DNA of 64,000 bases from Gelidibacter gilvus (lineage in GTDB: Bacteria; Bacteroidota; Bacteroidia; Flavobacteriales; Flavobacteriaceae), in contig NZ_SDDZ01000003.1 of assembly GCF_004115975.1 (NCBI RefSeq), forward strand, positions 1 to 64,000, written 5' to 3'. Shown here piece by piece: positions 1 through 25,135 of the stretch. The translations under genes were made by a program, and so were the position numbers. The notes under the pieces are model-generated. The model saw only the letters and a program-made list of their open reading frames with translations. It had not been told where the DNA came from and made no database searches. The stretch's first letter is position 1. Every line of letters starts with the position of its first letter.

Positions 1-2
1 AA

Positions 3-314
3 GTAGTGGGACGTTTATATAAACATAATAAAACAATAGTAAACAGTTATAAACTACAAAAGCCAAAAAATGAAAATCAAGTTTTAGATTTTTTTAAAAA
101 ACAAAAATGGTCGGAAATGGAAGCTGCAAAATTTTTTAATCACTACGAAGCGACAGGTTGGAAATTGGGAGGTAAAGTCCAAATCGAAAATTGGCAGGCC
201 ACCGCAAAAAATTGGATGATTAAAGCGGCTGAAATTGCCTTAAAAAACAAAACAATTGAAAATGGTTCCCCAACTGTCCCAAAATCGGGACAACCTCCAT
301 ACCACTCGAAATAA
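3..314 (+). CDS. DnaD/DnaT-like replication protein, 5' end uncertain
   Basis: The frame is open to the window edge, so the true start may lie upstream; a GTG at position 6 is the first possible start inside the window. The product, about 100 residues, has a helical core with W-S-E-x-E-A, F-x-x-Y, G-W-x-x-G and W-Q-A-x-A-x-x-W, a pattern I know from the DNA- and helicase-loader-binding domains of DnaD/DnaT-like proteins and phage replisome organisers. The C-terminal tail is rich in proline and serine and looks disordered. It lies 63 nt upstream of a DnaC-like ATPase gene, the usual partner in phage and plasmid replication pairs, which supports the call. A role in loading a helicase onto mobile-element or phage DNA is inferred. 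Confidence 0.55.
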   Translation, partial: VVGRLYKHNKTIVNSYKLQKPKNENQVLDFFKKQKWSEMEAAKFFNHYEATGWKLGGKVQIENWQATAKNWMIKAAEIALKNKTIENGSPTVPKSGQPPYHSK

Positions 315-377
315 AGATTACAACCAGCCCCTTTAATTTTTCTTGAGGTCACAACCAGAATTCCTAAACTCTAAAAA

Positions 378-1061
378 ATGAAACACTTTTCTTCAAATTA
401 CAACATGAGCAACCCAAGCGTGATTTACGAAGGAGCTTCGCAATTCGAACTCGGTACGCTAGACGGTAAAGTCATTAACTACAATTTCGACAAAATTTTA
501 CTTTACCTCCAGGTCAAAGGGAAATTGATGTTCGGTAAAAATTTTAAAATTTACAACGAGGATCACCAACTGATTCTCAAATTATCCAGCTACTTCATTC
601 AAGATCGGGAGTTCGCTCTTAAATTCGGAATCGATATAGACAAAGGATTGTTGCTTTCAGGACCTGTTGGCTGTGGCAAAACGACTATGATGATGTTGTT
701 GCCGCATCTCGTGCCGCACAAAAGAAAGTATAATATCGTTCCGGCAAGAAACATCGTTTTTGGCTTTAACGCCATCGGTTACAAAATGATCGAAGATTAT
801 TGCGATGCCAAAGATTATTGCTTCGATGATTTGGGTGTTGAAAATATAGGCACCCACTTCGGAAAAGACTGCAACGTCCTAGGCGAGATATTAATCTCAC
901 GCTACGACCTGTTCAAAGAAAAAGGCGTGAAGACCCATTGCACCACCAACCTCAATGCTGAAGAAATTCAAGAACGCTACGGCGAACGTGTCCGCTCCAG
1001 GATGCGGGAGCTTTTTAACTTGGTGGGGTTTGAGGCGTCTAGTGTGGATAAGAGGCTCTGA
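378..1061 (+). CDS. DnaC/IstB-like P-loop ATPase (helicase loader type)
   Basis: The 227-residue protein has a Walker A motif GPVGCGKTT at residues 95-103, a Walker B motif CFDDLG near 148-153, a sensor-1 strand HCTTNLN near 187-193 and a basic R-V-R-S-R-M segment near 205-210 that fits the arginine-finger/sensor-2 region. This order is that of DnaC and IstB AAA+ ATPases, which load replicative helicase or assist transposases. There is no transposase next to it, and the preceding DnaD/DnaT-like gene favours helicase loading. An alternative start is the Met at residue 10. Its 3' end (from HCTTNLN to the stop) recurs in degraded form three more times in the next 9.3 kb, which makes this gene look like the parental copy of a recombination hotspot. 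Confidence 0.75.
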   Translation: MKHFSSNYNMSNPSVIYEGASQFELGTLDGKVINYNFDKILLYLQVKGKLMFGKNFKIYNEDHQLILKLSSYFIQDREFALKFGIDIDKGLLLSGPVGCGKTTMMMLLPHLVPHKRKYNIVPARNIVFGFNAIGYKMIEDYCDAKDYCFDDLGVENIGTHFGKDCNVLGEILISRYDLFKEKGVKTHCTTNLNAEEIQERYGERVRSRMRELFNLVGFEASSVDKRL

Positions 1062-1169
1062 ACGTAATTTGATTAACGGATTTTATTTCAATTTACGTGT
1101 AGTTAAATCGTTTTCATTCAGTATATTAGTTCTTATTAATGCCTTGGCTCAACTTAAACTGCTAACACT

Positions 1170-1790
1170 ATGGGCAACCATAACCACTTCTGGAATTGGT
1201 TTAAAGAAAACCACCAAAACTTAGAAAATCCGCACGACTTCGATAAGATCGGATATTTGATGTTAGAAGCCCAAGAAGAACTTAGTTATTATAGTTCTAA
1301 TTTAACCTTTTTTATAAAGTACGCTACAGAAGAAAATAAGAAAAACAAACTAAAGTTCGTTTCAAGTGGGGATAGGAGTGTGGTTGTGATGGTAAACTAT
1401 CTTCTTAGCAAAGCCCCGGAATTGCCCAAATGGAAATTTTCTCTAAAAAAACGATCAAAACGTAAACTCAGCAAAATCATTGAGGGCACCGATCCTGACT
1501 ATGAGTTTGGCGACTTCAAAATCAAGATCAGCGATCTCATGTTTGCCCCATTCAACTACTGTTCGGATACCGAGATGTTTGATATTACAATTTATCTCTC
1601 TGAATTCTGGAAACATCCCCAGGTGTTGTTATATCAGGCCATGGCCATCCTGCTTGAGGATCTATTGGGCGCCGATTATGTCTACTCAAAGATTGACCAA
1701 CTTACATTGGAGCAGATCCCCAAAAATATTGAGGGACTCATTCCTGCCCATGACATGGAGTTGTTTTTTCAAACATTTACCATGGAATAA
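1170..1790 (+). CDS. Uncharacterised 206-aa protein (FWNWF-type)
   Basis: I do not recognise an established function. The protein starts with an F-W-N-W-F-x-x-N segment, has a central A-P-E-L-P-K-W-K-F motif near residues 87-95 and an acidic C-terminal half, and lacks a signal peptide or membrane segment. The layout resembles small cytosolic proteins of unknown function common in Bacteroidota, some of which sit in accessory regions; a role as an immunity-type or stress protein would be a guess. It follows the DnaC-like ATPase gene by 108 nt. A stub of a second copy (first 27 codons) follows another ATPase remnant at 10372, so the ATPase end and this gene seem to travel together. Confidence 0.6.
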   Translation: MGNHNHFWNWFKENHQNLENPHDFDKIGYLMLEAQEELSYYSSNLTFFIKYATEENKKNKLKFVSSGDRSVVVMVNYLLSKAPELPKWKFSLKKRSKRKLSKIIEGTDPDYEFGDFKIKISDLMFAPFNYCSDTEMFDITIYLSEFWKHPQVLLYQAMAILLEDLLGADYVYSKIDQLTLEQIPKNIEGLIPAHDMELFFQTFTME

Positions 1791-1849
1791 AATTGTTCGC
1801 TTCCAGGCCAATTTAAATTACACGCACAGATATATCAAATAAAAAGAGA

Positions 1850-1979
1850 GTCAAAACAAATTGCACTACCAACTTCAACGCCGAAGAAATCCAAGAACGC
1901 AACGGCTTACGGGTTCGCTCCAGAATGTGGGAGCTTTTTCATTTAGTTTGGTTCAAGGCGTCTAGTGTGGATAAGAGAT
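1850..1979 (+). pseudogene. Remnant 1 of the DnaC-like ATPase 3' end
   Basis: Read in frame from GTC at 1850 this stretch gives T-N-C-T-T-N-F-N-A-E-E-I-Q-E-R and then R-V-R-S-R-M-W-E-L-F, ending in A-S-S-V-D-K-R. It corresponds to residues of about 184-226 of the intact ATPase at 378-1061, including the exact string GCGTCTAGTGTGGATAAGAG near the end. The stop codon is lost and no Walker motifs are present. It lies 60 nt after the 206-aa gene. The rest of the 1791-2203 gap shows no gene and is very AT-rich. Confidence 0.75.
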
Positions 1980-2203
1980 GTGGAATTAGTTTTATTATCT
2001 ATAATTTTTCGTCCGCAAAAAGATATAATATGCAATTTCATAATTATTGTATTCTAATGTATTGATTTTAAGTATTTTTGATGTAGCTTAGCTATGATTA
2101 AAAAAAAATTCGAACATATTTAATTATCAAAAATTTTATTGAGATCAACACCCCTGCTGATATTTCCAACATTTGCAAAGAAAACAACTAAATATATCTC
2201 AAA

Positions 2204-3361
2204 ATGGAAAAAGCAATATTACTCATTTCATCAATTCTCATTCTAATAGTTGGTAAGACATTTGCTCAGTCAGATACTATAAAAAAAATAGAAAATCTAG
2301 ATCTGAATAAATTACAGAATATTGTAACCGACATTAAAGTCGAGAATACTAATCTTCAAAAAAGGCTGGAGTCATTAGAGGGTAGTGTAACAAAAGACAA
2401 CTTAAATAAAGTGCTTAAAACTGCAAATATCGAAAAATTCAAAAGCGATATGAATGTGCTAGATAAAAGATTTGAGGCTGGTGAAAATGTTTTGTATCAT
2501 ATTATTAAAGAAACAAACAACTTTAATCTTTCGTATAAGCAATTAGTGTTGCAATCACAATTTGGTGCTTTGATTAATCCTATGACTTATCCTGAGTTTA
2601 CTACACCTTTGAAAACAACATTAAATTCCCTTAAAGATAGAAAGCCAATACCCGATATTTCACAAGACCTTTCTAATATTTCATCTACAGTTCCATATTT
2701 AAGTAATCCTGTAGTTAATTCGGGACTTTCTATTGTTTCTTATTTTATTGCTAAGTATAACAATAAGAGTGCGATTAACAATCAGAATTTCGACAAAATG
2801 ATGTGTGTTATTAATTTCATTACAACTGCTGAGACGGATTATAAGGTTAATGTTTCAACAATTAAAACTCTAAGAGATAAAATTGATAATTATAATATAA
2901 AGCTTAAGGGTTTTTTTGATTTATATCTTCAATCGATCGGTTATAATTCTGGTTATGATGCTTACATTACTAGTAAAACCACTCATGGTAATAATTTTCT
3001 AAATCAAACTCGAGAATCCTTTTTCAATTCTATACTCTCAGATACCACAAAAATCGGAATTATTAATTACTCAACAAATAAGGATGATAATGTCTCATAT
3101 TACATAGAGCAAGTGAAATTTCAATTAAGCGAATATGAATCAATTCTACTTGATATTGAAAATAGTATAAATGGATATGAAAAATTTACGAATGATCTTT
3201 CTGAAACAGCAAATTCCTCATGCGCTGGTGTTAAAAATCAAACGAAAGATACTTTTAAAGTAATCAACGATAATATATCAGATGTTAAATTAGCATTTAA
3301 TATTGTCAATAAAGAAAACAAAGTGCCTGCAGACCTAAAGAGAGTATTATTTGGGCTGTAA
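2204..3361 (+). CDS. Predicted exported coiled-coil protein, function unknown
   Basis: The 385-residue product opens with a clear signal peptide: a Lys-bearing N-terminus, a hydrophobic run to about residue 18 and an F-A-Q cleavage site. Residues 25-95 are rich in leucine, lysine and glutamate with heptad-like spacing and should form a coiled coil; the rest is polar and mostly helical, with no motif that I recognise. It is probably periplasmic or surface-exposed. The base composition is very AT-rich, as expected for recently acquired cargo. It sits alone between an ATPase remnant and the convergent SOS cassette, the same setting as the exported protein gene at 9138. Confidence 0.6.
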   Translation: MEKAILLISSILILIVGKTFAQSDTIKKIENLDLNKLQNIVTDIKVENTNLQKRLESLEGSVTKDNLNKVLKTANIEKFKSDMNVLDKRFEAGENVLYHIIKETNNFNLSYKQLVLQSQFGALINPMTYPEFTTPLKTTLNSLKDRKPIPDISQDLSNISSTVPYLSNPVVNSGLSIVSYFIAKYNNKSAINNQNFDKMMCVINFITTAETDYKVNVSTIKTLRDKIDNYNIKLKGFFDLYLQSIGYNSGYDAYITSKTTHGNNFLNQTRESFFNSILSDTTKIGIINYSTNKDDNVSYYIEQVKFQLSEYESILLDIENSINGYEKFTNDLSETANSSCAGVKNQTKDTFKVINDNISDVKLAFNIVNKENKVPADLKRVLFGL

Positions 3362-3626
3362 CATATTTGACTGGCTTTATCTATAAAATCTGGAGTAGAT
3401 GATTGATTTAAGTACGGTAAATTTACATCTTTTGGAGAGAGAAGTTAAAAATGAGCATAAGGCATTCAAATTTGGTAAATATTTTATTAATGTAATAATA
3501 TAGATTAAAGAATAAGTTTTTTTGTGCTAACTGTCGATTGATGAATGGAGTGTCGTGATTAAGATAATTAGTTTTATAATCCTAGGCTTAAAGTATTCAA
3601 TGTTGTAAGAATCACTCAAACCAAAC

Positions 3627-4391
3627 CTAAATCACCAACTCCGCATAATTCACAGGCTCACTAATCTCTGGGACATTCCCCATATATTCCTTACCTCTCA
3701 ATTTTGATACCGTATGCGCCTCCAATTCTTCCTGCGGATATGCTTGAATAAGCTCCTTAATAAACTTCCGGTCTTTATTGCCTTCTAATTTGGTCAACCA
3801 TTGATCTGCTAATTCTTCGTGCAGAATCACAGGCATTCTCGCTTCTTTAAGTTTCGGGTTATTATGGATCTTAGCCAGGAGCGGATTTCCCGTGGTCGTC
3901 ACAATCGAGAACGTATTCATTTTTCCAGAAGTTTCAGGATTGACCCACTCATTAAAAAGTCCAGCTAAAATAATCGGGGAGTAGTCTTTCTTATAGATAT
4001 AAAAAGGATAGGTCTTTTTCTCAAAATGATGATGTTCATAAAACCCATCTATATAAATTAAGCAACGGCTTCCATTGGCAGCCCGTCTAAACGAATTTAA
4101 TTCAAATATGGTTTCCCCGCGGGCATTCAAAGTGTTGTTCCAACTCTTTTTCATATCCGCTTCATTTTTCACCCAATGCGGAACCAATCCCCAAGTGGCC
4201 ACTTCAGGATAATCCGGAGAACGATCTGTATAGATCAACAATTCCGGATGCGAAAATCCTGAGCTGTGATGGATCGGCAAATCGGTCAACGGAATTAAGG
4301 TTTCCATAATTTCATCAACGGCTTTTGCATCACCCTTTGTTTTGGCGCGTTTCAATTGGGTTTCTACGGTCGCTCTAATATCGTAACACAT
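3627..4391 (-). CDS. SRAP-domain protein (SOS response-associated peptidase, YedK/HMCES family)
   Basis: The 254-residue protein begins Met-Cys, so removal of Met would expose the catalytic Cys2 that SRAP proteins use to cross-link to abasic sites in single-stranded DNA. Other family marks are W-G-L-V-P-x-W near residue 67, N-A-R-x-E near 89-93, G-F-Y-E-H at 116-120 (catalytic Glu119 likely) and R-M-P-V-I-L at 185-190. The active-site His probably is His176; some eight residues separate it from R-M-P, where many members have H-x-R-M-P. It is the third gene of a minus-strand unit after the Y-family and DnaE-like polymerases, 89 nt from the latter. This is a known SOS-type combination in Bacteroidota; a protective role at abasic sites during translesion synthesis is inferred from the family. 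Confidence 0.88.
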   Translation of the reverse strand: MCYDIRATVETQLKRAKTKGDAKAVDEIMETLIPLTDLPIHHSSGFSHPELLIYTDRSPDYPEVATWGLVPHWVKNEADMKKSWNNTLNARGETIFELNSFRRAANGSRCLIYIDGFYEHHHFEKKTYPFYIYKKDYSPIILAGLFNEWVNPETSGKMNTFSIVTTTGNPLLAKIHNNPKLKEARMPVILHEELADQWLTKLEGNKDRKFIKELIQAYPQEELEAHTVSKLRGKEYMGNVPEISEPVNYAELVI

Positions 4392-4480
4392 GATTTTTTA
4401 TTTTAAAGTTAGGAGTATTGCGAATTACCTGCAACTATTTTAATCAACCTTAACAGCATGTTACACCAATTTTGTAGCAA

Positions 4481-7438
4481 TCAATTATTCCTCGGATCCT
4501 CCAGTATCCCCATTTTACGACTCCAAACCACATTCATGCTATAAAAATCAAACCTATCGGTTATTCGGCCATAACAAGCATAAACCCCCAATCCATTAAT
4601 TGGGTATTTCTCTACGACATCAGTAAAATGTACGGCATCAAAATAGTCGCCGTTACAATCAATAAAAGTACTCAACCGCATTAATTTACCTTGAGACGTT
4701 TTGTTGAATCTAGTCGTAACCAAACTGCCATATATCACAACCTCTTTATTTATATAATCTTTCATCTGAATCGCCAAAACGCCATTGGCCATTTCGCCAT
4801 TAACAAGATTGAAGTAATTACATAAAGGAAAGCCCAGCAGCTCCATTTCATCGTAAGCATTTTCAATCCAATTACTATTTAGTTTGGGCAACTTGAATGC
4901 CTTATGCTGGATTTTAAACAACTTTTCTTGCTGACTTTTGACGCCATCGGCATTCAGTTTAAAAATGGCCTGCCACAGCAATTCGGTTTTCGATTGTTTT
5001 GTAAATCGGAAAGCGTCTATCCGAATTAAAATAGTCAGCTGTTCGATGCTTATGGTGACGCGATCTATAAAATCATCCAGGGAGTTAAATGCACCATGCC
5101 ACTGCCTTTCCGTTAAAAGCCGTTGCACGGTATAAGTCTCTAAATTCTTCAAGTATCCAAAACCTAAATAAATGGAGGTACCAATCAATCGGTTCGGATG
5201 CTCACTGTTATTAATGCACGGCGCACAAATGGTCGCGCCCTGTTTCTGTGCTTCGTGTAAATAATGTTCCACACTATAAAAACCACCGCCATTGTTCAGT
5301 ACGGCAGTCATAAACTCCAAAGGAAAGTAACATTTCAGATATAAACTCTGGTAACTTTCCACGGCATATGATGCGGAATGGCCTTTGGCGAAAGCATAAC
5401 CGGCAAAACTTTTAATCTGATTCCAGACTTCAAAAATCAATTCATGCGTAAAGCCTTTCTTTCTGCAATTGGATATAAACTTTTCTTCTACGGCAACAAA
5501 TTCTTGACGTGATCGAAACTTACCGCTCATCCCTCGTCGTAATACATCAGCTTCACCAAGCGATAAATCGGCGAATTGATTGGCAACTTTTAAGACGTCT
5601 TCTTGATACACCATCACACCATAAGTTTCAGGCATTATTTGCATCAGTATCGGATGGGCATTTTTTCGCTGCTCAGGATACCGGTGGCGCTTAATAAATT
5701 CCTCTTTCATCCCAGATCCTGAAACACCTGGTCTAATAATGGAACTAGCAGCAACTAATCCTATATAGTCTTGGGTCTGTAACTGCTGCATCAATCCACG
5801 CATGGCTGGCGATTCGACATAATAGGCACCAATGGCACCTCCCGATTTTAAAAGCGCATTGATGTTCTTGTCCTTCTTAAAAGCTTCAACATTGGTAATG
5901 TCAATAGGAGGGACTTCGGGCCTGTTTTCTTTAATAATATCCAAAGCATCTTTAATCTTGGCCAATCCCCGCTGACCTAAAATATCGAATTTGAAGACCC
6001 CAACATCTTCCGCGATGATCATATCAAACTGAACCGTAGGAAATCCTTTTGGTGGCATATCGGTTGCCGAGTAATAATGCACCGGTCGGTCCAAAATAAG
6101 CACCCCAGCAGAATGAACACTCAAATGGTTGGGGAATCCCTCAATTAATTTGCCGTATCGTAAAACAAGCTGTGAGATGTCATCTAATTGTGAAAGGGCG
6201 TAATTCCCTTTGCTCAATTTATCAATTTCCTCCTTTGGCAAACCAAAGACTTTTCCCAATTCTCGAACTACCGCTCGATACTTAAAAGTATTGTACGTGG
6301 CCATTAGAGCAGTATGAGGAAACCGTCTAAAAATATAATCCGTCACATCATCTCTATCCTTCCAGGAGAAATCAATGTCAAAATCAGGTGGGGAAGCTCT
6401 AAACGGATTTATGAAACGTTCAAAATACAAATCCAATTCAATAGGGTCAACATCGGTGATCCCAATGATATAGGCCACAATACTATTGGCGCCACTACCA
6501 CGCCCTATATGAAAATAACCTTTGCTGTTGGCATAGGAAACGATATCATAATTGATCAGAAAGAAGGCCACAAAATCCAAAGATTTTATAGTGTCCAATT
6601 CGGTTTTTAACCGGTTTAAAACTACCTCATTCGGACTGGAATAACGTTTGTGTAAATTATCGTGACATAGTTTTTCTAGAAGTTTGTAATCGTTCTCAGC
6701 GGAATCCGTATAAAGCTTTAAATTTTGTGAAACCCGATGTTCTCCAAAGCCAAATTCAATATGACAGCTATTTAAGATCCGATTCGTGTTTTCAATAATA
6801 TGTGGAAAATCAGCAAAAGCTTCATTGATTTCATCCAAAGGAATCATTTTTTCAGTCAACTTACATTCCTCCGATTTATCAAGTTTGCTCAATAAAGTGT
6901 TTTTATCAATAGCTCGTAAAAGCCGGTGCGCATTGAAATCCTTTTTTCCTCTTATGGTAACGGTCTGCAGAACCACTAATTTTCTTTCTAGGTTTTTCAA
7001 TTTAGAGAACCGCAGTTTCCGCAACTCTTCAATCGACACCCCAATAAATTCGTTATCAGAAAATTCAGTTTTTTCTAATTGCAGAACATGCTCAAAAGGA
7101 TAAATTATATAACAATTCTCAAAAGTAGGAGCGAGCTCAGGCAATTTAATTTTGTTTTCCGAATGATGGGATAGAAAGGCGTTGAGTTCTTTAAATCCCT
7201 CATTGTTCTTGGCAAGACCTACATACACTTGCTTGTTCCCATTTCTAAAGTCAATTCCAACCACAGGCTTGATATCATAATCCTTCGCTTTTCGGATGAA
7301 ATTTAAGCATGCCGAGGTATTATTAATGTCCGTTAATGCTAAAGACTGGACATCATTTGTTTTGGCAAGTTCTAAAAGTTCAATTTCAGAAAACGTGCCG
7401 TAGCGTAGGGAATAGTATGAATGACAGTTGAGATACAT
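4481..7438 (-). CDS. DnaE-like error-prone DNA polymerase III alpha subunit
   Basis: The 985-residue protein has an N-terminal PHP domain (residues 1-65 onward), then the C-family polymerase core: G-R-G-S-G-A-N-S at 312-319, P-D-F-D-I-D-F at 351-357 (catalytic Asp354 and Asp356) and K-F-D-I-L-G at 483-488 (third Asp485), then fingers and a C-terminal OB-like region. The length is shorter than replicative DnaE (about 1,160) and fits the DnaE2/ImuC translesion type. The PHP start reads N-C-H-S where active proofreading PHP domains have H-x-H, so the metal site appears incomplete. Its ATG shares one base with the Pol IV stop (TAATG), which implies translational coupling. It is therefore likely an SOS mutasome polymerase, not the housekeeping one. 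Confidence 0.88.
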   Translation of the reverse strand: MYLNCHSYYSLRYGTFSEIELLELAKTNDVQSLALTDINNTSACLNFIRKAKDYDIKPVVGIDFRNGNKQVYVGLAKNNEGFKELNAFLSHHSENKIKLPELAPTFENCYIIYPFEHVLQLEKTEFSDNEFIGVSIEELRKLRFSKLKNLERKLVVLQTVTIRGKKDFNAHRLLRAIDKNTLLSKLDKSEECKLTEKMIPLDEINEAFADFPHIIENTNRILNSCHIEFGFGEHRVSQNLKLYTDSAENDYKLLEKLCHDNLHKRYSSPNEVVLNRLKTELDTIKSLDFVAFFLINYDIVSYANSKGYFHIGRGSGANSIVAYIIGITDVDPIELDLYFERFINPFRASPPDFDIDFSWKDRDDVTDYIFRRFPHTALMATYNTFKYRAVVRELGKVFGLPKEEIDKLSKGNYALSQLDDISQLVLRYGKLIEGFPNHLSVHSAGVLILDRPVHYYSATDMPPKGFPTVQFDMIIAEDVGVFKFDILGQRGLAKIKDALDIIKENRPEVPPIDITNVEAFKKDKNINALLKSGGAIGAYYVESPAMRGLMQQLQTQDYIGLVAASSIIRPGVSGSGMKEEFIKRHRYPEQRKNAHPILMQIMPETYGVMVYQEDVLKVANQFADLSLGEADVLRRGMSGKFRSRQEFVAVEEKFISNCRKKGFTHELIFEVWNQIKSFAGYAFAKGHSASYAVESYQSLYLKCYFPLEFMTAVLNNGGGFYSVEHYLHEAQKQGATICAPCINNSEHPNRLIGTSIYLGFGYLKNLETYTVQRLLTERQWHGAFNSLDDFIDRVTISIEQLTILIRIDAFRFTKQSKTELLWQAIFKLNADGVKSQQEKLFKIQHKAFKLPKLNSNWIENAYDEMELLGFPLCNYFNLVNGEMANGVLAIQMKDYINKEVVIYGSLVTTRFNKTSQGKLMRLSTFIDCNGDYFDAVHFTDVVEKYPINGLGVYACYGRITDRFDFYSMNVVWSRKMGILEDPRNN

Positions 7439-8652
7439 TACTGGTTTCTATGAGCTAATACTGTTGGCGGTTCGCCGTTGAATGGATTGTCAAATCTTCC
7501 TATAGAATTGGCGCCCATTGACGAGGCGCGCATAATGCTGGCTTCGCCATAACGGCCTCTAATATGATCCATGGCATTATAAAGACTGAGCATTTCTTCG
7601 GTATCATCAAATAGATTAATTTGATAGTGACCGCTTACTATATCGTTGATCTTTACTCCGACAAGTCGAACCAACAACCGCCGTTGATACAATTGTTCAA
7701 ACAGTTCCATCACTTTCGGAATGATAACATGGTCTGCGCTGGAGTAAGGAATTTTAACCTGTTTGCTATACGTATTAAAATCTGAGTACCGAATTTTCAC
7801 ACTAATCACCCCAGCTATTTTATTCCCTCTCCGTAACTGAAAAGCCAAATTTTCAGCCATCGCAAAAATGGTGGTTCGCAACTGTTTGACATCTATAGTA
7901 TCCTTATTGAAAGTGCGTTCTGTTGAAATGGACTTGCGTTCATGGAACGGCACCAACGGAGGATTGTCAATACCGTTAGCCCTTTTCCAAATGGTGGCAC
8001 CATTGGCACCCAATGCGCTGGTCATCATTTCGATGGGCATTTGTTGTACCACTCTAACTTTATCAACGCCTAAATTTCGCAACACCTGATACGTTTTTTC
8101 TCCCACAGATGGTATCTTCCTAATGGATAAAGGCCCCAAGAATGATTTCTCAAAACCCGCATCAATCTTCAATTGGTTATTGGGTTTCGCCTCTCCAGTG
8201 GCAACTTTAGAAACTATTTTATTGACCGACAATCCAAACGAGATTGGCAAACCGCTATTTTTAATGATACTCTGCCTGAGCTCAGAAGCATATTTATAAC
8301 AGCCATGAAACTTATCCATCCCAGTCAAATCGGCATAGAATTCATCAACACTTGCTTTCTCAAATACCGGAACTTTCTCCTTAATGATCTCCGTAACCAA
8401 ATGCGAATATTTGGTGTAAATAGAAGCATCCCCTCGGATCACAATAGCCTCCGGACATAAATTACGCGCCACCTTCATCGACATTCCCGAATGCACGCCA
8501 AACACTCGCGTTTCATAACTACAAGCCGCAACAACACCTCGATCTCCCGCGCCACCAACTAATAACGGTCTGTTAGCCAGTCTGCTATCAATCAATCGCT
8601 CACACGACACAAAGAAAGTATCCAAATCGAGATGCAAAATATTCTTTTCCAT
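7438..8652 (-). CDS. dinB: Y-family DNA polymerase IV
   Basis: The 404-residue product carries the Y-family palm motifs: H-L-D-L-D-T-F-F at 7-14 with catalytic Asp9, and S-V-D-E-F-Y at 101-106 with Asp103 and Glu104. A helix-hairpin-helix-like region follows (near 180-190, I-P-S-V-G-E-K-T) and then the little-finger domain. It synthesises DNA past lesions with low fidelity. It is the first gene of the three-gene minus-strand cassette with the DnaE-like polymerase and SRAP. No LexA, UmuD-like or ImuA gene is adjacent, so control would come from elsewhere. A UmuC-type member cannot be excluded; in Bacteroidota these cassettes are annotated under both names. Confidence 0.88.
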   Translation of the reverse strand: MEKNILHLDLDTFFVSCERLIDSRLANRPLLVGGAGDRGVVAACSYETRVFGVHSGMSMKVARNLCPEAIVIRGDASIYTKYSHLVTEIIKEKVPVFEKASVDEFYADLTGMDKFHGCYKYASELRQSIIKNSGLPISFGLSVNKIVSKVATGEAKPNNQLKIDAGFEKSFLGPLSIRKIPSVGEKTYQVLRNLGVDKVRVVQQMPIEMMTSALGANGATIWKRANGIDNPPLVPFHERKSISTERTFNKDTIDVKQLRTTIFAMAENLAFQLRRGNKIAGVISVKIRYSDFNTYSKQVKIPYSSADHVIIPKVMELFEQLYQRRLLVRLVGVKINDIVSGHYQINLFDDTEEMLSLYNAMDHIRGRYGEASIMRASSMGANSIGRFDNPFNGEPPTVLAHRNQ

Positions 8653-8700
8653 TCTGCAAAATTACCCGTAATTGTAGCCATTTGTTGCTATTAATTGTAG
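8653..8700 (-). promoter_or_regulatory. Candidate promoter and repeated operator of the translesion cassette
   Basis: On the minus strand TAATTTTG (8664-8657) matches the Bacteroidota -7 box TAnnTTTG and lies only four bases before the dinB ATG, so the transcript would be nearly leaderless. No clear -33 TTG was found. Upstream, the nine-base word CTACAATTA occurs twice on the minus strand (plus-strand positions 8669-8677 and 8692-8700), 23 bp apart, i.e. about two helical turns. A related GCTACAA occurs before the SRAP gene at about 4470 and near 9005. An SOS-type repressor site is an inference. Confidence 0.35.
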
Positions 8701-8763
8701 TATGTGGATAACTTGTTGGTGTTGTGTTCGAAGTTGAAAAGTTTGATTATGAATTTTAAAAGC

Positions 8764-8875
8764 GACAAAAGCCAATGCACGCCAACCTCAACAAAGCAGA
8801 AATTCAAAAGCGAAATGGCACGTGTGTCCGCCCTAGGATGCGGCAAAAATTTAATTCGGGTATTTTTGAGGCCTT
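8764..8875 (+). pseudogene. Remnant 2 of the DnaC-like ATPase 3' end
   Basis: The nucleotide sequence aligns over about 110 bp with the 3' end of the ATPase gene at 378-1061: CCAACCTCAA, then GAAATTCAA, then CGTGTCCGC, then AGGATGCGG are shared in order. Small indels shift the frame and a stop has arisen, so it is not coding. It lies between the translesion cassette and the exported protein gene at 9138. The rest of the 8701-9137 gap shows no gene. Confidence 0.7.
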
Positions 8876-9137
8876 TAGTAAGATTAAGATGATATCAGTT
8901 TAACGTGAATGATTTTTAATATTAATTGTAGGGAAATGTATTGAAAAGGAATATGTTTGACGGTCAATACAGATAAATGTAATTAGCCGTGTTGAATCAT
9001 TTGTTGTAGCACATTCTCCACACTGGAAAAACTTGTAAATCTCTTTGCAAACGAATAAAATGTTTGAGTATGAAAATCACAATAATTTTGACGTGCACCA
9101 GAATTATAATACAAGTTTTAAAAATATTAAAATATTT

Positions 9138-10067
9138 ATGAAAAACCTTAAATTTCTATTGATTATTGGGCTATTTTTTATTAAAAGCTATTGCCAAACC
9201 AATATTAATTATTCGAATTTTGATGCTTGGAAACAAAATTCTTCCAATAAAAAGATGGAGCATGTTAAAACCATTTATGAATCTGGGTATATTGAAATAG
9301 ACAATAAAAGATCTACAGCTATAATTTATAACACTAAATTAAATCAGAAAGAATTATTTAATTTCACTAAATTTATTATGGTTGAAAATGGTCATGTCCT
9401 TGGCTTTGGAAAACTCGATAGACAACACATGTTAACTTTCATTCCAGAAGATAAACTTCTTTTGTTAAAAGTAAATGACATTGTAATTATGCAATTTTCC
9501 TTAAGCCAGTCTGATATTTTGAAATTGAAAAACGAATTTCGAAGTATAGGCAATAATAATAGTAATAAAGGTTTACCACAGAACAAGGTTGATCTTTTAG
9601 TTGAGAAATATGATTATAAACAGATAACAATTTTCACTTCTGAGGGCGAATTAATAGGGTTCCCAACTATTAAAAATAACTCTGATGGAAAACCTTATTC
9701 TATTAAAATTAATGGAAGCACGACTGATAATGTCGACAAAATCTCTGAATTCTTTAGTTCTTTATTCAATGATAAGGTAAAAGAAGGGTTTACTACTAAT
9801 GCAGCACATTTAAGGCTACAACCTCCATATAATAGTGAATCAATTAGGAAAATGATGGATAGAGCTTATTTGGGAAATTCCGAAAATGGATTTAGGGTCG
9901 AATTCAATAAAGAAAGTTATGTGTTTAAAGCAGAGGTGAAGAGGAGGCAAGAGTCATATGTAGATGATCAAGGTTTTGTAAGAAGACGATACTTATATGA
10001 TTTTTTTATTGAGTTAATTGACAAGTTAAGATTAGCAGGAAGTAAATCAACCAATTTCAAGTTTTAG
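9138..10067 (+). CDS. Predicted exported protein, function unknown
   Basis: I chose the ATG at 9138 over an ATG at 9060 and a non-ATG start at 9045, because from here the protein opens with M-K-N-L-K-F, a hydrophobic run L-L-I-I-G-L-F-F-I and a plausible signal-peptidase site at S-Y-C-Q. The mature part of about 290 residues is polar and lysine-rich with alternating strand-like stretches, and no domain was recognised. It is probably periplasmic. Like the exported protein at 2204 it lies between two ATPase remnants, is very AT-rich, and is followed by a terminator-like hairpin at 10146, so it behaves like a one-gene cargo module. Confidence 0.6.
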   Translation: MKNLKFLLIIGLFFIKSYCQTNINYSNFDAWKQNSSNKKMEHVKTIYESGYIEIDNKRSTAIIYNTKLNQKELFNFTKFIMVENGHVLGFGKLDRQHMLTFIPEDKLLLLKVNDIVIMQFSLSQSDILKLKNEFRSIGNNNSNKGLPQNKVDLLVEKYDYKQITIFTSEGELIGFPTIKNNSDGKPYSIKINGSTTDNVDKISEFFSSLFNDKVKEGFTTNAAHLRLQPPYNSESIRKMMDRAYLGNSENGFRVEFNKESYVFKAEVKRRQESYVDDQGFVRRRYLYDFFIELIDKLRLAGSKSTNFKF

Positions 10068-10145
10068 AAACAGGCGACAACAAAATGCTAAGGTGAACAA
10101 TCAAACTCGTCTCCAATAGCTTTTATACAAATTTACCGAAACACC

Positions 10146-10167
10146 AAAAAAGCCTGTCAGCTTTTTT
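10146..10167 (+). terminator. Intrinsic terminator-like hairpin
   Basis: AAAAAAGC and GCTTTTTT form a perfect eight-base inverted repeat around a six-base loop, 79 bp after the stop of the exported protein gene. The T-run follows in the plus direction. The stem is A/T-rich, so termination strength is uncertain, and it could work both ways. Confidence 0.55.
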
Positions 10168-10227
10168 GTTTATATAACAGTATAACTTCAGTTAGTATAT
10201 TGCCTTTTCAAATAAAAAAGCGATAAA

Positions 10228-10353
10228 ACCCATTGCACCACCAACCTAAACGTCGCAGAAATCCAGGAAAGCTATTGCGTCCGCGTACGTTATCGCATGC
10301 GTCAAATGTTTAATCTATTAGCTTTTAGTGAATATTCCCAAGACAAACGCTAA
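10228..10353 (+). pseudogene. Remnant 3 of the DnaC-like ATPase 3' end (frame intact to stop)
   Basis: From ACC at 10228 the frame reads T-H-C-T-T-N-L-N-V-A-E-I-Q-E-S, then R-V-R-Y-R-M-R-Q-M-F-N-L-L, ending Q-D-K-R-stop. It matches residues from about 186 to the end of the intact ATPase, including the D-K-R terminus. It has no start codon and no Walker motifs. It is the best preserved of the three remnants and has diverged clearly from the parental copy, so it derives from a related allele, not from a recent duplication. Confidence 0.8.
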
Positions 10354-10371
10354 CTAAAAAAATAAGGCATT

Positions 10372-10455
10372 ATGAATAACCTCAACACATTCTGGGATTG
10401 TTTAAAAGAAAACAACCAGTATTTAGAAAACCATCAAGACATACTCAATAACTAA
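10372..10455 (+). pseudogene. Stub of a second copy of the 206-aa (FWNWF-type) gene
   Basis: The 27-residue reading frame M-N-N-L-N-T-F-W-D-C-L-K-E-N-N-Q then Y-L-E-N-H-Q-D matches the start of the protein at 1170 (M-G-N-H-N-H-F-W-N-W-F-K-E-N-H-Q and L-E-N-P-H-D) and then stops. It begins 18 bp after the ATPase remnant, the same gene order as at 378-1790. The following 265 bp up to 10720 show only faint similarity to the rest of that gene and no intact gene. Confidence 0.7.
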
Positions 10456-11198: not shown

Positions 11199-13250
11199 TC
11201 AATCCACAAGAATCCCTTTCTGCATCAACATTTGATTATTGGAATAAAATGGAACGTCTGTATTGCCTAATACTGTGGCGGGGACGTTGGGTATTTCGTT
11301 TAGGTTATCCATTGGCACAATAACGGTTTTTGCGCCGTTCTCCGAGAGCATTGTGATTTTGTCTGTGAAGTTAATAGCTCTTTCAACTGCGCCACCAACG
11401 GATATGTTACCCAAGACAGCTAATCCTGGTTTCAAGTTCTTTTTGTAGATAGAGGATATAATGGCGATATAGACTGCCGAGCCAATACCAGAGGAAACAT
11501 TGGATCCTAACAAGGTTGTTACTTGTACAGAAACGTCAAAATTCTTTAGAGAATGTTGTTCATCCAAAATGGTCTTTTCATTGGCTTTAATATAAAGAAA
11601 AGTGTTTTTTATATTTTCTTTTACTGGGTTGTTACTAACCCCGGTAATATTAAGTTTTCCTGAACCGGAAGTTATGACTACCTCAATTCTAACTAGAGCC
11701 AAATTATCCCCATCACTTGTGCTGGTGTAACATACGCCAGGTTGCAAGGGCGTGTTTTCTATTAGGTGAGATCCTTTTTCTTCAGGTAATCCTATGTAAT
11801 GTTCATCTTGGGTCTCTTTATCGATATAAGAAAAGTTTGTGTCCCAAAATTCCATTCCACCAATGCGCTTGAGCTGTTCTTTTACTCTTCTACGCATTTC
11901 TATAGCTAGTTCTAGATATTCTCTTACATCTTCCTTTGTGAAGTCACCATCGGGATGCATTAGCTTGATGAATCCTGAAACCGTCTTTTTTACTGGTTTT
12001 GTATCACGTTGCTTTAGGTGGGAACCTAAAGTGAAATAGTCTTCTAAAGTATCTGTATAAGTACTTTTTCTGAATGATTTAAGGCACTCTGAAAAGTAAT
12101 CTGTACTGAACCCAAAATTATCAGTGAAATTATCTGGTGAAAATTTAATCATTTCCCATCCCGGAAGATAGAAATGGATTCTGTCCAAAAAAGCAGTGTC
12201 ATTATTTACTTCGTCAGATAGAGCGCTAAATAAATGACTTGTTTGTAAGACAGTTTCAATAGGTTGATTAATATTTCCATTGAGAATGATTGAGGCTACA
12301 CCTGTTATTTCACCACCTGCACCAGCTCTAGAAAAGGATCCAGATTCCATATAATCCTTCATTAAAGGAACGGCATCGCGCTCTTTAAATATTTTATCCG
12401 TTGCTTCATCAAAGCAGATAGCGTCCCATTGCCCTACAGCTCCTACCTTGCCTGTAGAGCCGTGAACGAATAATTTTGCAATTGTTCCTTGTCCGCCAGA
12501 AATAAGCACCGCATAGGGCGTTAATTCTTTGTAAACGAAAGATTTTCCAGTTGATCTTGGACCTAGTTCAACAAAGTTGAAATTTGCTTCGACCATTGGT
12601 AATAGTCGCGATAGCAATAGCATTTTAACTCGGTGTGTCATTCCTTCGGACTCTGGCTCATAACCGCAACTTCTCAGGAGAAGGTTTAACCATTCACTCT
12701 TACTAAACTCCTTTCTTTTTGAAATTAGTCTGGAGTTATCAAATGAAGATAATTGAATGGGTTTAATATCTTTTATCAGAAAGGGATGGAGCGTAGCGCC
12801 TTCCTTACTATAAGCGTCATATTCAATATCTATAATGGCCCATATACCACCCATCAACATTTTATCGTGGGCACTTACCATTGCGTCAGAAATTACCCCG
12901 TCTCGAATATTACTATTTTGCAGATCTGCCCAATAGACGTCTTTTTTAGTGTCTAATTTCACCGATATTCTGTCGATGATTTTATAGCTTCCTTTTTCTC
13001 TTATTCTTGACTGGATGAGGTTGCTTTCTTCTGGGTTCACATAATGCTTGGAAAGAATGCTTTTCACATTCTCCATTCCTTGCTTTATTTTTTCTTCGTC
13101 ATCCGTGGAACAGGAATTAGCAATTAGAAATTCCAATACAAATACTGGAACATTTGCGCCAACTTTTAAAGATCGAACTAAGTCTTTTTTAACTACAAAC
13201 CCTCTAAAGTGTTCTAGTAACTTATTGTCTAAATCGTCAAGTACAATCAT
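11199..13250 (-). CDS. brxL: BREX system Lon-like protease BrxL
   Basis: The 683-residue protein has an ATPase core with Walker A G-P-R-S-T-G-K-S at 230-237 and Walker B W-D-A-I-C-F-D-E at 275-282, and a C-terminal Lon-protease-like domain with S-S-G-I-G-S-A-V (candidate catalytic Ser) followed by G-G-A-V-E-R and F-T-D-K-I (candidate Lys). The size and domain order are those of BrxL, an AAA+ protein that marks type 1 BREX and is needed for phage restriction in studied systems. It lies 11 bp downstream of pglZ and 19 bp upstream of the nuclease-like gene, all on the minus strand. Confidence 0.9.
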   Translation of the reverse strand: MIVLDDLDNKLLEHFRGFVVKKDLVRSLKVGANVPVFVLEFLIANSCSTDDEEKIKQGMENVKSILSKHYVNPEESNLIQSRIREKGSYKIIDRISVKLDTKKDVYWADLQNSNIRDGVISDAMVSAHDKMLMGGIWAIIDIEYDAYSKEGATLHPFLIKDIKPIQLSSFDNSRLISKRKEFSKSEWLNLLLRSCGYEPESEGMTHRVKMLLLSRLLPMVEANFNFVELGPRSTGKSFVYKELTPYAVLISGGQGTIAKLFVHGSTGKVGAVGQWDAICFDEATDKIFKERDAVPLMKDYMESGSFSRAGAGGEITGVASIILNGNINQPIETVLQTSHLFSALSDEVNNDTAFLDRIHFYLPGWEMIKFSPDNFTDNFGFSTDYFSECLKSFRKSTYTDTLEDYFTLGSHLKQRDTKPVKKTVSGFIKLMHPDGDFTKEDVREYLELAIEMRRRVKEQLKRIGGMEFWDTNFSYIDKETQDEHYIGLPEEKGSHLIENTPLQPGVCYTSTSDGDNLALVRIEVVITSGSGKLNITGVSNNPVKENIKNTFLYIKANEKTILDEQHSLKNFDVSVQVTTLLGSNVSSGIGSAVYIAIISSIYKKNLKPGLAVLGNISVGGAVERAINFTDKITMLSENGAKTVIVPMDNLNEIPNVPATVLGNTDVPFYSNNQMLMQKGILVD

Positions 13251-13261
13251 ATTATTTTAAA

Positions 13262-15499
13262 TTATAGAAGACCACCTAAGTCTCTGGCTTTACTCTGCTT
13301 TATAGTTACTTTGTCCAATTGCTCCTTCGTCAAAGCATCCATAACTTTAACTTCAAGTATTGAATGGTTTCCGAAACTATATTCTTTTTTGAATAGTTTA
13401 TCTCTCTCAATTACGAAGACTTCACTTTCATTAATTTTTCCCCCTTCAGAAAAGAACATAAGGATTATTTTTCGCTCTGTAGTAAACAAATTTTTGGTGG
13501 TAGATTCAGCCATTAAATGAATTGAAAATAAATCGCCTAATACTTCAGTTAAGGATGATTTATTGGAAATAGTCACTCCTAAGGAATCTCCATCGGTATG
13601 CAGGTGTGTCCATTTTAAGAAAGGAATAATGGTTTCCTGAGGGGAAAGCCCTCCGTGACTAAAACCATATACTCCTGGGGTTTTAAATGGCCCTAGTCTT
13701 TTAGCAAAATAACAATAGTTATTGGATTTATATTCCAGTCCTTCTTCGTGAAGTAAGTCTATGTTTATGGACTGCTTTTCAGCTGTTCTAATATATCTTT
13801 CATTCTTTTCTACTTTTCCATCGAAGTTGACTTCAATTTTATCGGAATCTTCAAGAATACCCGTGAGTACAAAACCGTGATCCGTGAGTAGATATACATT
13901 TTGATATCCGTTTCTAAGTAATTGCTCAATCTTATTGGCATAAAGAGTGGCTACCGAATCAAAATGTACTAAAGCTTTTTGCTGATATGTTTCCCCTAAT
14001 TTATCAGGGTCTTTATGACTGCAAATTAAGTAGTGTTCATTATCCGTTTGCTCACTTACCTTATCGAGGTCTATAAAGCCAATGTTTTTATCGGAATTTG
14101 CTTTCTTTAAATAGGCTTCCCTATCTGTTTTCTTAGCCATTATTTCACCAGATGCCACATAAAGTTGGCTCATATTATGTTCCGTTATCGAAGGGAGTCC
14201 TGCGAACATATATTGCGGTTCCTTATCTAACTGATAATCATTGGAGACTCTTTTTATAATGTCTTTAGAGAATTCATAGGAAATACCATCGCCCACAACT
14301 ACAGCAGTTTTTGCGGTATTCTCATCTAAGATTTTTTGTATAGTTCCCAGTTGATTGGGTGTATAGTCGTCAATGTATTTAAACCATTTATCCAAGAAGA
14401 GGGTTACAGTGTTCTTGTAATAGCCTTGTATGGGTTCTAATAAATCTCTTTTATTTAAAAACTCAGTGTACAGTTTTCGAATGGCGTTATCTAATTTATA
14501 AAAATGCTCGGTATAGAAAGAAATACATTCATCCAAGGATGCCAATTGATTGATATTCTTTTCATCAAATTCCAACAAGGTTTTTATAGGAGACCAAAAC
14601 TTAATATCTAAGTTTTTCACCACACGATCCGCTATCCTTTGATTGATCTTGGGAATGAAATCCGCTATAAATTTTTTATCCGAAATGTTTTCTCCTAATT
14701 TTCGTAACCATAGCTCGTCAATCGATAAAAACGGGTGTGATGGATGAACTTTAAACATATCCGATTTTTCGGCTAGCTTATATTTCTTAAGATATCCGAT
14801 AAATGATTTTTGGTAGGATTGACTATCCAGCCAGGTTTTATAAACTTCTAGTAGTATTGGGTTTGGATTGTTGTTTGCCAATCCTTCTAGCAAATGATTT
14901 ACAACCTCAGTAGCTAGAGTTGCTGGTGGCTTATTTATATAGGATTGCCCAATGAGTTCGTAGACCTTTTTAAAGAATATTTCTTGGGTTTTCTTATCAT
15001 ATTTATTGAGATGACTTTTTGGATTGTCTAAGAAGGGAAGTAACTCTTTTTGAAGGTCAAAAATTTCAGAGGAGCCTTTGTGGCTTAGGTCCATCCAGTA
15101 GGTTTGATCTTTTCCTACACTTATTTTTGCCGCTGATATTAATTCTTCCTTGTCAAGGTTTAAATTTAAATTCAGTTGTTTGTGAACTTTTTCCTTGACG
15201 TAATTCTGAAGATATTTTATTTCTACTCTGCCGTTGGTTTCACAATATTCCCGGATAAATTTTAATTCTTCTATAGGGCGATGGGAGTAGAGTAGATATT
15301 TTTTATTTGGGTCGTCTGCTTTCTCAATATCATACTTCACCTTTAACTCTTCAAGATCTGTATTGACTTCAAATATGGTTATTTGCTTATCAATGGTATT
15401 GAGTAGAAATGCAGCTTCTTTAGATTCATCAATAAAAACTGTTATTGAATGATCTGCAAATATTTTTTCTAAATCTTTATTAAACCAAGTATCAATCAT
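13262..15499 (-). CDS. pglZ: BREX phosphatase-fold protein PglZ
   Basis: The 745-residue protein has an N-terminal helical region of about 390 residues, then the alkaline-phosphatase-superfamily domain of PglZ: V-V-V-G-D-G-I-S-Y-E-F at 400-410 (metal-binding Asp404), L-P-S-I-T-E-H at 435-441, and L-L-T-D-H-G-F at 537-543 (Asp540, His541). PglZ is the defining protein of all BREX types. It is separated from the upstream accessory gene by 335 bp that hold two repeat arrays, so pglZ-brxL-nuclease may form a second transcript. Confidence 0.92.
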   Translation of the reverse strand: MIDTWFNKDLEKIFADHSITVFIDESKEAAFLLNTIDKQITIFEVNTDLEELKVKYDIEKADDPNKKYLLYSHRPIEELKFIREYCETNGRVEIKYLQNYVKEKVHKQLNLNLNLDKEELISAAKISVGKDQTYWMDLSHKGSSEIFDLQKELLPFLDNPKSHLNKYDKKTQEIFFKKVYELIGQSYINKPPATLATEVVNHLLEGLANNNPNPILLEVYKTWLDSQSYQKSFIGYLKKYKLAEKSDMFKVHPSHPFLSIDELWLRKLGENISDKKFIADFIPKINQRIADRVVKNLDIKFWSPIKTLLEFDEKNINQLASLDECISFYTEHFYKLDNAIRKLYTEFLNKRDLLEPIQGYYKNTVTLFLDKWFKYIDDYTPNQLGTIQKILDENTAKTAVVVGDGISYEFSKDIIKRVSNDYQLDKEPQYMFAGLPSITEHNMSQLYVASGEIMAKKTDREAYLKKANSDKNIGFIDLDKVSEQTDNEHYLICSHKDPDKLGETYQQKALVHFDSVATLYANKIEQLLRNGYQNVYLLTDHGFVLTGILEDSDKIEVNFDGKVEKNERYIRTAEKQSINIDLLHEEGLEYKSNNYCYFAKRLGPFKTPGVYGFSHGGLSPQETIIPFLKWTHLHTDGDSLGVTISNKSSLTEVLGDLFSIHLMAESTTKNLFTTERKIILMFFSEGGKINESEVFVIERDKLFKKEYSFGNHSILEVKVMDALTKEQLDKVTIKQSKARDLGGLL

Positions 15500-15600
15500 T
15501 TATCTATGCTCTTAATTACTATCATATTTAACTGCTAATCTATCTTTCCTGCTTATTCAGGAGTACTGTTATTAGTGCTGCTATCAAACTTCTATTTAAA

Positions 15601-15666
15601 GTGTCATTTATGGTGACATTTATTATGACATTTAATATGACATTTAAAGTGACATTTAAAGTGACA
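15601..15666 (-). repeat. 12-bp tandem repeat array A (five and a half units)
   Basis: Units of exactly 12 bp run head to tail; on the minus strand the consensus is ATGTCACTTTAA with small changes. Each unit contains a start and a stop in one frame; in another frame it reads V-T-L-N repeated. Tandem tetrapeptides of the N-D-T-L-N kind are known to me from the C-terminal region of AlbA_2/winged-helix proteins such as the gene just upstream, so the array may be the remains of such a tail. The flanking parts of 15500-15834 have no gene. Confidence 0.75.
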
Positions 15667-15748
15667 CATAGCTATACTATTAAATAGCAGACTAATTGCT
15701 TCCTTAAACTGTTATAAAACCATCACTTTAAAGTCTTTATCAACACAA

Positions 15749-15802
15749 TATTTAAAGTATCATTTAAAGTATCATTTAAAAGATCATATAAAGTATCATT
15801 TA
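15749..15802 (-). repeat. 12-bp tandem repeat array B (about four units)
   Basis: This is a second array with a 12-bp period, minus-strand consensus ATGATACTTTAA. In one frame it reads N-D-T-L-Y-D-L-L-N-D-T-L-N-D-T-L-N and stops 8 codons later. That frame is shifted by one from the end of the accessory gene at 15835, which ends 33 bp before. It is related to array A about 90 bp further on. Confidence 0.75.
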
Positions 15803-15834
15803 GAAATAGGATTAACCACACTTTTAAAACAAGT

Positions 15835-17265: not shown

Positions 17266-17268
17266 TTT

Positions 17269-20955: not shown

Positions 20956-20960
20956 GGTGC

Positions 20961-24569: not shown

Positions 24570-24577
24570 AGCCTGAT

Positions 24578-25135
24578 TTAGTCAATTATTGTGCATCTAT
24601 ATTTTGATGCCTGTTTAAAGTTTAGAAAAAGTAAATTTTCATTTTCAATTTTCACTGGATAGAAAATTATCAAGGGTTGTTTTAGTTCCATAACGGAGCT
24701 GTGTTCCATAATATTCACATTTTCTATTCCTGTTCCGTAAAGTGCCCCGGTACGAATTAATATTGGCATTAAACCTGCTTCCTCAGCCTCTGATATTTCT
24801 CTTATAATGAGATCCATTAGATCGATAGCATCGTCATCGGAATTAAAAATAATGTGAGGTGTTAGAGAGAAATCCTCATAATATTCTTTAAAATCATTCC
24901 ATCCGTCAATATCTATAAATTCAACAAAGAGTTTAGCGATATCGATAAATTTATATTGCGAAGTGGGTAAGTATTCCTGAGCCTTTTGAAGGTACAGTTT
25001 TTCCTCGTCAGGCGGATATGTAAATAAAATACTATTTCCTCCATTGGCTTCACGCCTAAGTTGATTCCTGTTTTTAAAATCAGCACTCACCTTTAAGTTG
25101 TGGAACTTAGCTTTATAATCATCTAAAAATGCCAT
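24578..25135 (-). CDS. brxB: BREX protein BrxB (DUF1788 family)
   Basis: The 185-residue protein has the usual length and position of BrxB, between brxA and brxC. Recognisable stretches are F-T-Y-P-P-D-E-E near 53-60, R-T-G-A-L-Y-G near 146-152 and F-Y-P-V-K-I near 173-178. Its role in the BREX complex is not established. It overlaps the end of brxA by 17 bp, so the two are translationally coupled. Confidence 0.85.
   Translation of the reverse strand: MAFLDDYKAKFHNLKVSADFKNRNQLRREANGGNSILFTYPPDEEKLYLQKAQEYLPTSQYKFIDIAKLFVEFIDIDGWNDFKEYYEDFSLTPHIIFNSDDDAIDLMDLIIREISEAEEAGLMPILIRTGALYGTGIENVNIMEHSSVMELKQPLIIFYPVKIENENLLFLNFKQASKYRCTIID

Follow-up and report, generated by a model that had tools for sequence, protein, structure and literature searches.

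Variable, defence-rich cargo and same-strand gene-end scars behind a helicase-loader ATPase gene of flavobacterial mobile elements

The first 64,000 nucleotides of contig NZ_SDDZ01000003.1 of Gelidibacter gilvus (assembly GCF_004115975.1), referred to below as the window, carry an intact gene for a DnaC-like helicase-loader ATPase, followed on the same strand by three degraded copies of its 3′ end, called tails or remnants in this work. ATPase tails accompanied by variable, defence-rich cargo are a true and recurrent arrangement in flavobacterial mobile elements. In marine flavobacteria, genes, many of them directed against viruses, seem to have been added repeatedly right behind this one mobile-element gene, and the tail of an older copy may remain after an addition as a scar. 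In the best explanation that we can offer, which has about an even chance of being right as a whole, an integrative mobile element of flavobacteria has its cargo end here, with the ATPase gene as its last conserved backbone gene, and new cargo was stacked serially behind that gene, anchored by homology, with the displaced tails still attached to older cargo.

The ATPase gene and its remnants in the window

The ATPase matches DnaC-like helicase loaders (phrog_50), and the intact gene was confirmed at 378–1061, where a preliminary description of the window had placed it. Three degraded same-strand 3′ copies had also been reported, and all of them (W1, W2, and W3; Table 1) align to the ATPase 3′ end above chance, with local alignment scores of 153, 53, and 74, whereas each remnant's 1000 dinucleotide shuffles scored no higher than 34 and the maximum was 30 among 391 real control windows of 270 bp (11 to 63.7 kb, both strands). 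The remnant length of 110–130 bp given earlier requires correction, as at the DNA level the left edges lie 149 bp (W1), 141 bp (W2), and 154 bp (W3) from the gene end. The last remnant is indeed followed by a stub of the gene type that stands behind the intact ATPase: the start of the 206-aa gene is repeated after W3 over 73 nt at 73%. No further ATPase copies were listed in the 64 kb by tblastn at E 0.01.

Mobile-element backbone and variable cargo in relatives

Twenty loci of related Flavobacteriaceae (L041–L060, from 18 genomes) were picked from the best and most complete matches of a full-length family search. In most of them, the ATPase gene is preceded by RteC, HTH, and p220 clusters; L048 and L056 hold unassigned genes, and p220 of L052, L054, L058, and L059 was detected by tblastn. 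Eleven of the 20 have, no more than 12 kb downstream, a TraG-sized cluster that was taken by eye for conjugation genes. In L061, the sole locus scanned, BfmA-type, MobB relaxase, and MobC-like genes stand ahead of the RteC-HTH-p220-ATPase set; the MobC match is under NCBI's cut-off, and Pfam coupling domains are over Pfam's cut-off. The whole protein was matched in 109 of 299 family genomes, and its C-terminal and N-terminal probes in 135 and 123 of 397 genomes, respectively, a few of the matches being other DnaC-like proteins.

Past the ATPase stop codon, the DNA is mostly variable among 38 intact loci, which bears out the cargo variation foreseen for related genomes. Twenty-nine of 703 pairs of 300-bp flanks beat the best shuffled pair; 15 loci are without any flank relative, and the others form four groups, one of them with 13 loci. 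Five loci (L047, L048, L072, L075, and L078) share post-stop DNA and apparently one endonuclease/exonuclease-like first cargo gene, its function being taken from the start of the sequence.

That defence genes gather at this place, as had been suggested, is supported by a comparison of the largest non-backbone open reading frame (ORF) 0.6–6 kb downstream of the ATPase in L041–L060 (19 loci; none in L056) with the largest such ORF 2.9–8 kb upstream (20 loci). PADLOC models matched 14/19 downstream ORFs at E 1e-5, compared with 3/20 upstream (one-sided Fisher p = 3e-4), and 10/19 compared with 1/20 at 1e-30 (p = 0.001). The ten matches at 1e-30 are to IetS, GajA (three), a UvrD/GajB-like helicase (generic fold), OloA, a type I methylase, a type IIG enzyme, a type I restriction enzyme, and a cyclase of the cyclic oligonucleotide-based anti-phage signalling system (CBASS); some weaker matches are partial.

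Intact ATPase genes and tails enclose SOS genes in the window, DUF6088 and AbiEii genes in G334, a 16.6-kb polysaccharide-utilisation block with SusC/D-type, GH32, and PfkB genes in G228, and, in two instances in G269, about 120–210 bp with no gene. The sister genomes G093 and G296 have the chromosomal site and restriction genes in common. In G093, the intact ATPase is followed by one 308-aa gene and then by the restriction genes; in G296, where no intact ATPase of this type was found, exported-protein genes lie between two ATPase tails, ahead of the same restriction genes. G093 has a repeated 49-bp sequence, found both behind its intact ATPase (L086 8150–8198) and about 28 kb on (L087 13878–13926), ahead of other exported-protein genes; it is also present in G296 (L085 flipped, ~8895–8942).

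Paralogous islands in the same genome

The window begins at the first base of its contig, C37, and the gene before the ATPase is cut short for this reason. A paralogous island is found on a second contig, C33, whose first base is the same position within p220; the shared starting point makes it probable that the assembly broke at a near-identical repeat upstream. The order on C33 is ATPase, 206-aa gene, tail, a 136-aa lipoprotein-like gene that replaces the window's 385-aa gene, SOS cassette, and second tail, after which an Orf5/HEC-06-type gene and a DruH3-type gene occupy the place of the bacteriophage exclusion (BREX) genes of the window. The two islands correspond over window positions 1–1976 (92%) and 3618–8960 (90%), and their homology stops at the end of W1 and, at W2, about 65 bp past the gene end. 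That ATPase 3′ ends mark the joins between modules, as was proposed at the outset, is supported. Divergence between C37 and C33 changes in blocks, from about 2% (1–525) through about 12% (526–1275) and again about 2% (1276–1800) to about 21% (past 1800), which is a sign of homologous exchange between both islands.

Elsewhere in this genome, C6 holds a divergent intact ATPase within a region resembling an integrative and conjugative element, and C39 holds an ATPase tail without an intact copy. The tails of this genome differ from one another. As seen by eye, the C39 tail (L040 flipped, 8006–10090) is preceded by an integrase fragment and a FAD-enzyme-like gene, and esterase-, regulator-, and SusC-like genes lie downstream of it.

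ATPase tails in other genomes

Few tails appear in a full-length family search because they are short, and C-terminal probes reveal them. Thirty-three genomes, mostly preselected for several or partial C-terminal matches and hence enriched, were probed with equal 45-aa pieces of the ATPase. Interior fragments at E ≤0.01 are strongly inclined to the 3′ end: the C-terminal piece gave 19 in 11 genomes, the middle piece 6 (five of them parts of tails detected with the C-terminal piece), and the N-terminal piece 1. G. gilvus itself has six C-terminal fragments and no N-terminal one, and an N-terminal search of 397 genomes gave one short frame among the matches listed. The orientation of intact copy and tail agrees on 7/7 contigs holding both.

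The 19 fragments include G376:C104, which is possibly half of an interrupted gene. Left out of them were G329:C14, G329:C19, and G354:C5, which are cut by contig ends; G378:C31 and G376:C7, located 65 and about 220 bp inside a contig start, which may be genuine fragments with lengths near 400 and 255 bp; a weak second G006 row (E 0.05), which nevertheless counts towards the 16 measured tails; and a 45-bp tail (L043 11197–11241) immediately behind the intact ATPase of G206.

In 15 of the 16 measured tails, the left edge lies 80–174 bp from the gene end (113–174 bp in the six tails of this genome), and in one it lies at 337 bp; there are four longer interior fragments besides, of 370 bp (L088), 501 bp (L090), 400 bp (L091), and 512 bp (L093). 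Sharp left edges differ (101, 105, 129, about 150, and 337 bp), and the alignment with the intact gene does not extend into the DNA on the left of the tails. One G296 tail and the G093 tail have the left junction and about 165 bp upstream in common. The length of the G269:C8 tail comes from a separate search and not from the DNA alignment, which matched the intact gene. A uniform-breakpoint test on the left edges (15/16) is not relied on, as the four longer interior fragments are missing from its set.

Codon positions were used to characterize the origin of the tails. In 16 remnants, the differences between the tail and the compared intact allele are distributed as 87/45/192 over the three codon positions. 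The third-position share is 59%, compared with 45% expected under duplication followed by decay (p = 7e-8), an expectation in which the working branch is modelled on the pattern seen among intact genes. The excess is retained without G334 (p = 2e-4), in this genome alone (67/115, p = 0.002), and with own-genome reference genes only (148/248, p = 1e-6). This lean favours, without proving, that the tails are the ends of diverged working alleles, mainly on the strength of this genome and G334. Tails are mostly nearest the ATPase type of their own genome or genus, so any donors would be related. Of the earlier suggestion that the remnants had different ages or donors, it is thus different donors that the codon positions favour, short of proof.

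Integrases and the flank beyond the stop codon

An integrase of the island family was detected by tblastn within 5.5 kb upstream in 10/38 intact loci and within 4 kb downstream in 0/38, this being the one family searched for among recombinases. By eye, none was seen between intact genes and tails in the intervals read (2.1 kb of the G093 interval left out). The one island integrase that was mapped, in G093, adjoins tRNA-Ser, and island attachment inside the ATPase end was dropped as a candidate on this account. The preliminary description had likened the remnants to the products of integrases at tRNA ends; these results and the spread of left edges from 80 to about 510 bp do not support that likeness, although the lone C39 tail, with an integrase fragment about 1.8 kb before it, speaks in its favour.

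About 70 bp past the stop codon are common to the tails C33a, W2, C33b and, less well, C39, and TATGTTTG is present in this flank in W2, C33a, and C33b. Sites of the form TTG-N23-TAnnTTTG, which we take to be the flavobacterial promoter consensus, occur at 2047 and 8926, right behind W1 and W2. The window contains 10 such sites on the plus strand and 9 on the minus strand, compared with a shuffled mean of 12.3 for both, and hence their placement is only suggestive.

Other features of the window

The features of the region are collected in Table 1. The BREX set BrxA, BrxB, BrxC, PglX, PglZ, and BrxL is present side by side; a 476-aa gene amid it (15835–17265) has only odd PADLOC matches, to Argonaute-associated and WYL/CasR models. 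Small exported-protein-like genes adjoin ATPase tails in the window (2204–3361 and 9138–10067) and in L038 (2156–2566), L085, and L087, and those beside tails in this genome, G296, and G093 may form a cargo class of their own.

Table 1. Features of the ATPase region and its cargo in the window.
Feature	Position	Strand	Basis or remark
p220, C-terminal part; backbone gene preceding the ATPase	6..314	+	5′ part beyond contig start
Intact DnaC-like helicase-loader ATPase; final backbone gene ahead of cargo	378..1061	+	phrog_50, E 2.8e-18
206-aa gene, first cargo gene	1170..1790	+	no family match; paralog on C33 at 95%
W1, ATPase 3′ remnant	1835..1977	+	DNA alignment, 82% over 142 bp
Promoter-like motif TTG-N23-TAnnTTTG, behind W1	2047..2080	+	motif match
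Exported-protein-like gene, 385 aa	2204..3361	+	no family match
SOS cassette	3627..8652	-	shared with C33 at 90%
SOS cassette, SRAP gene	3627..4391	-	
SOS cassette, DNA pol III alpha-like gene	4481..7438	-	
SOS cassette, Y-family polymerase	7438..8652	-	
W2, ATPase 3′ remnant (8758-8879) and conserved flank	8758..8960	+	C33 homology stops at 8960
Promoter-like motif TTG-N23-TATGTTTG, inside W2 flank	8926..8959	+	motif match
Exported-protein-like gene	9045..10067	+	ORF from TTG 9045; in-frame ATG 9138; no family match
W3, ATPase 3′ remnant	10203..10352	+	DNA alignment 10203-10274; protein match reaches 10350
Stub of 206-aa-type gene, after W3	10372..10455	+	27 codons
BREX genes BrxL, PglZ, 476-aa protein of unclear match, PglX, BrxC, BrxB, BrxA	11199..25889	-	

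Proposed mechanism and alternative explanations

In serial, homology-anchored stacking, an incoming related element would pair with the resident one along the conserved backbone as far as the ATPase gene and would contribute its own ATPase end together with new cargo. The other end of the incoming DNA would be joined within the 3′ portion of the resident ATPase gene, in a join involving little homology or none. The product would consist of an intact (often hybrid) ATPase, the new cargo, and the displaced older tail joined to the older cargo; repeated rounds would build an array, and the tails may later provide homology for module exchange. Only short tails would persist, as recombination between long direct repeats would remove the cargo. 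We infer this order of events, the illegitimate join, and the loss of long tails; displacement of this kind would account for the orientation, the 3′ bias, the absence of an integrase, and the mosaic exchange, and it fits better than a model of integrase action at the gene end.

Several observations weigh against homology-anchored stacking. Most left edges are confined to a narrow range (80–174 bp; 15/20 when the four longer fragments are included), tighter than random joins, and it is only the assumed loss of long repeats that explains this. In G296 and C39, tails occur without an intact ATPase in the vicinity, the tail in G376 could represent the latter half of a gene that was interrupted, and the shared post-stop flank of about 70 bp implies that the repeated unit reaches beyond the gene. 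The codon signal is uneven, with none in W2 and G228C4: own-genome genes without G334 give 109/200 (p = 0.003, or 0.04 under a stricter 48% expectation), the remnants outside this genome and without G334 give 42/85 (p = 0.21), and the tails of G296, G006, and G376 were compared with intact genes of other genomes. A before/after pair of near-identical strains was not found.

Small islands might instead be inserted by a recombinase whose target site lies in the ATPase 3′ end, with every unit bringing a replacement end that keeps the gene intact and moving the old end to the far side, as at tRNA genes. An intact gene with same-strand 3′ tails is what such site-specific integration would leave, and the left edges of this genome's six tails, the stop of paralogous-island homology at or just beyond the tails, and the integrase fragment near the C39 tail agree with it; we nevertheless consider it unlikely in view of the 0/38 intact copies with an island-family integrase within 4 kb downstream, the lack of one in the intervals read, the unequal sharp left edges (101 to 337 bp, with no fixed core), and the G093 integrase beside tRNA-Ser. 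The least improbable of the alternatives, though still an unlikely one, is that cargo circles bearing the last 100–150 bp of the ATPase enter the gene end by one homologous crossover, after which the gene would be intact and the junction of the circle would form the left edge of a tail. This would yield the observed anatomy; homologous exchange is evident from the stretches in which C37 and C33 differ by about 2%, and the junction shared by the G296 and G093 tails is consistent with it. On the other hand, about 130 bp at 75–85% identity is a poor RecA substrate, the first tail must arise some other way, and no circle was seen, none having been looked for.

A further proposal, which we hold to be quite doubtful, is that the ATPase 3′ end and its ~70-bp flank with the promoter-like motif form a dedicated recombination site. 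Cargo units ending in the site would be exchanged as cassettes, the site would give both junction and promoter, and a recombinase or replication protein, possibly the ATPase/p220 pair, would act from elsewhere. It is very unlikely that the ATPase 3′ end was copied in place, in tandem or by slippage, and decayed while cargo landed between the copies: the nearness of most tails to their own genome's or genus's ATPase and the non-significant codon bias outside this genome and G334 would suit such duplication, but the bias within these two, the dissimilarity of tails within one genome, and the different cargo after each tail oppose it. Least probable of all is that two related elements inserted next to each other and that the second then lost its redundant backbone by deletion, keeping just the ATPase tail. 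The genome does have several backbones or tails of related kind (C37, C33, C6, and C39), but RteC, HTH, or p220 stands directly before a tail in 0/15 loci (L064, L065, and L092 being cut by contig ends), the p220 of C39 lies about 2.5 kb upstream, and the RteC piece of G329 is on the opposite strand.

Relation to known systems and significance

Genomic islands that stand in tandem at tRNA 3′ ends also have modules bounded by same-strand repeats of a single gene's 3′ end; in contrast to such islands, no integrase of the one family searched for was found in the modules here, and there is no fixed core. Integron cassette arrays have modules lined up behind one fixed gene, much as modules here are queued behind the ATPase, but the fixed gene here is no integrase and the modules are multi-gene. 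For type VI secretion system (T6SS) effector-immunity modules of Vibrio cholerae, one study describes sequential displacement, also names orphan Rhs 3′ regions, and proposes homology-facilitated illegitimate recombination (PMC5361080). The two cases share a conserved upstream anchor, a new module behind it, older 3′ ends or modules downstream, and mosaic exchange; in the present case, the older 3′ ends of the anchor gene lie downstream in the same orientation. They differ in that the anchor here is a mobile-element helicase-loader gene, the displaced tails look non-functional, and the cargo comprises defence, DNA repair, glycan use, and exported proteins. The defence hotspots of Pseudomonas genomic islands (PMC12629846) are likewise conserved places in mobile islands with variable defence genes; unlike them, the present places belong to Flavobacteriaceae, have an RteC-type backbone, and carry gene-end scars marking the layers. 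A literature search found no description of the ATPase gene end as a cargo hotspot, or of its scars. The process is of a known kind, and its setting, the ATPase of flavobacterial mobile elements, is new.

These results give an address, behind one recognisable gene, at which flavobacterial mobile elements hold Gabija-type, CBASS-type, restriction-modification, and other defence genes, with BREX in the present window. Since the address is rich in defence, genes of no known family located there become candidates for roles in defence or competition. The scars may also let the layers of an array be read, which would make it testable in what order a mobile element took up its cargo.

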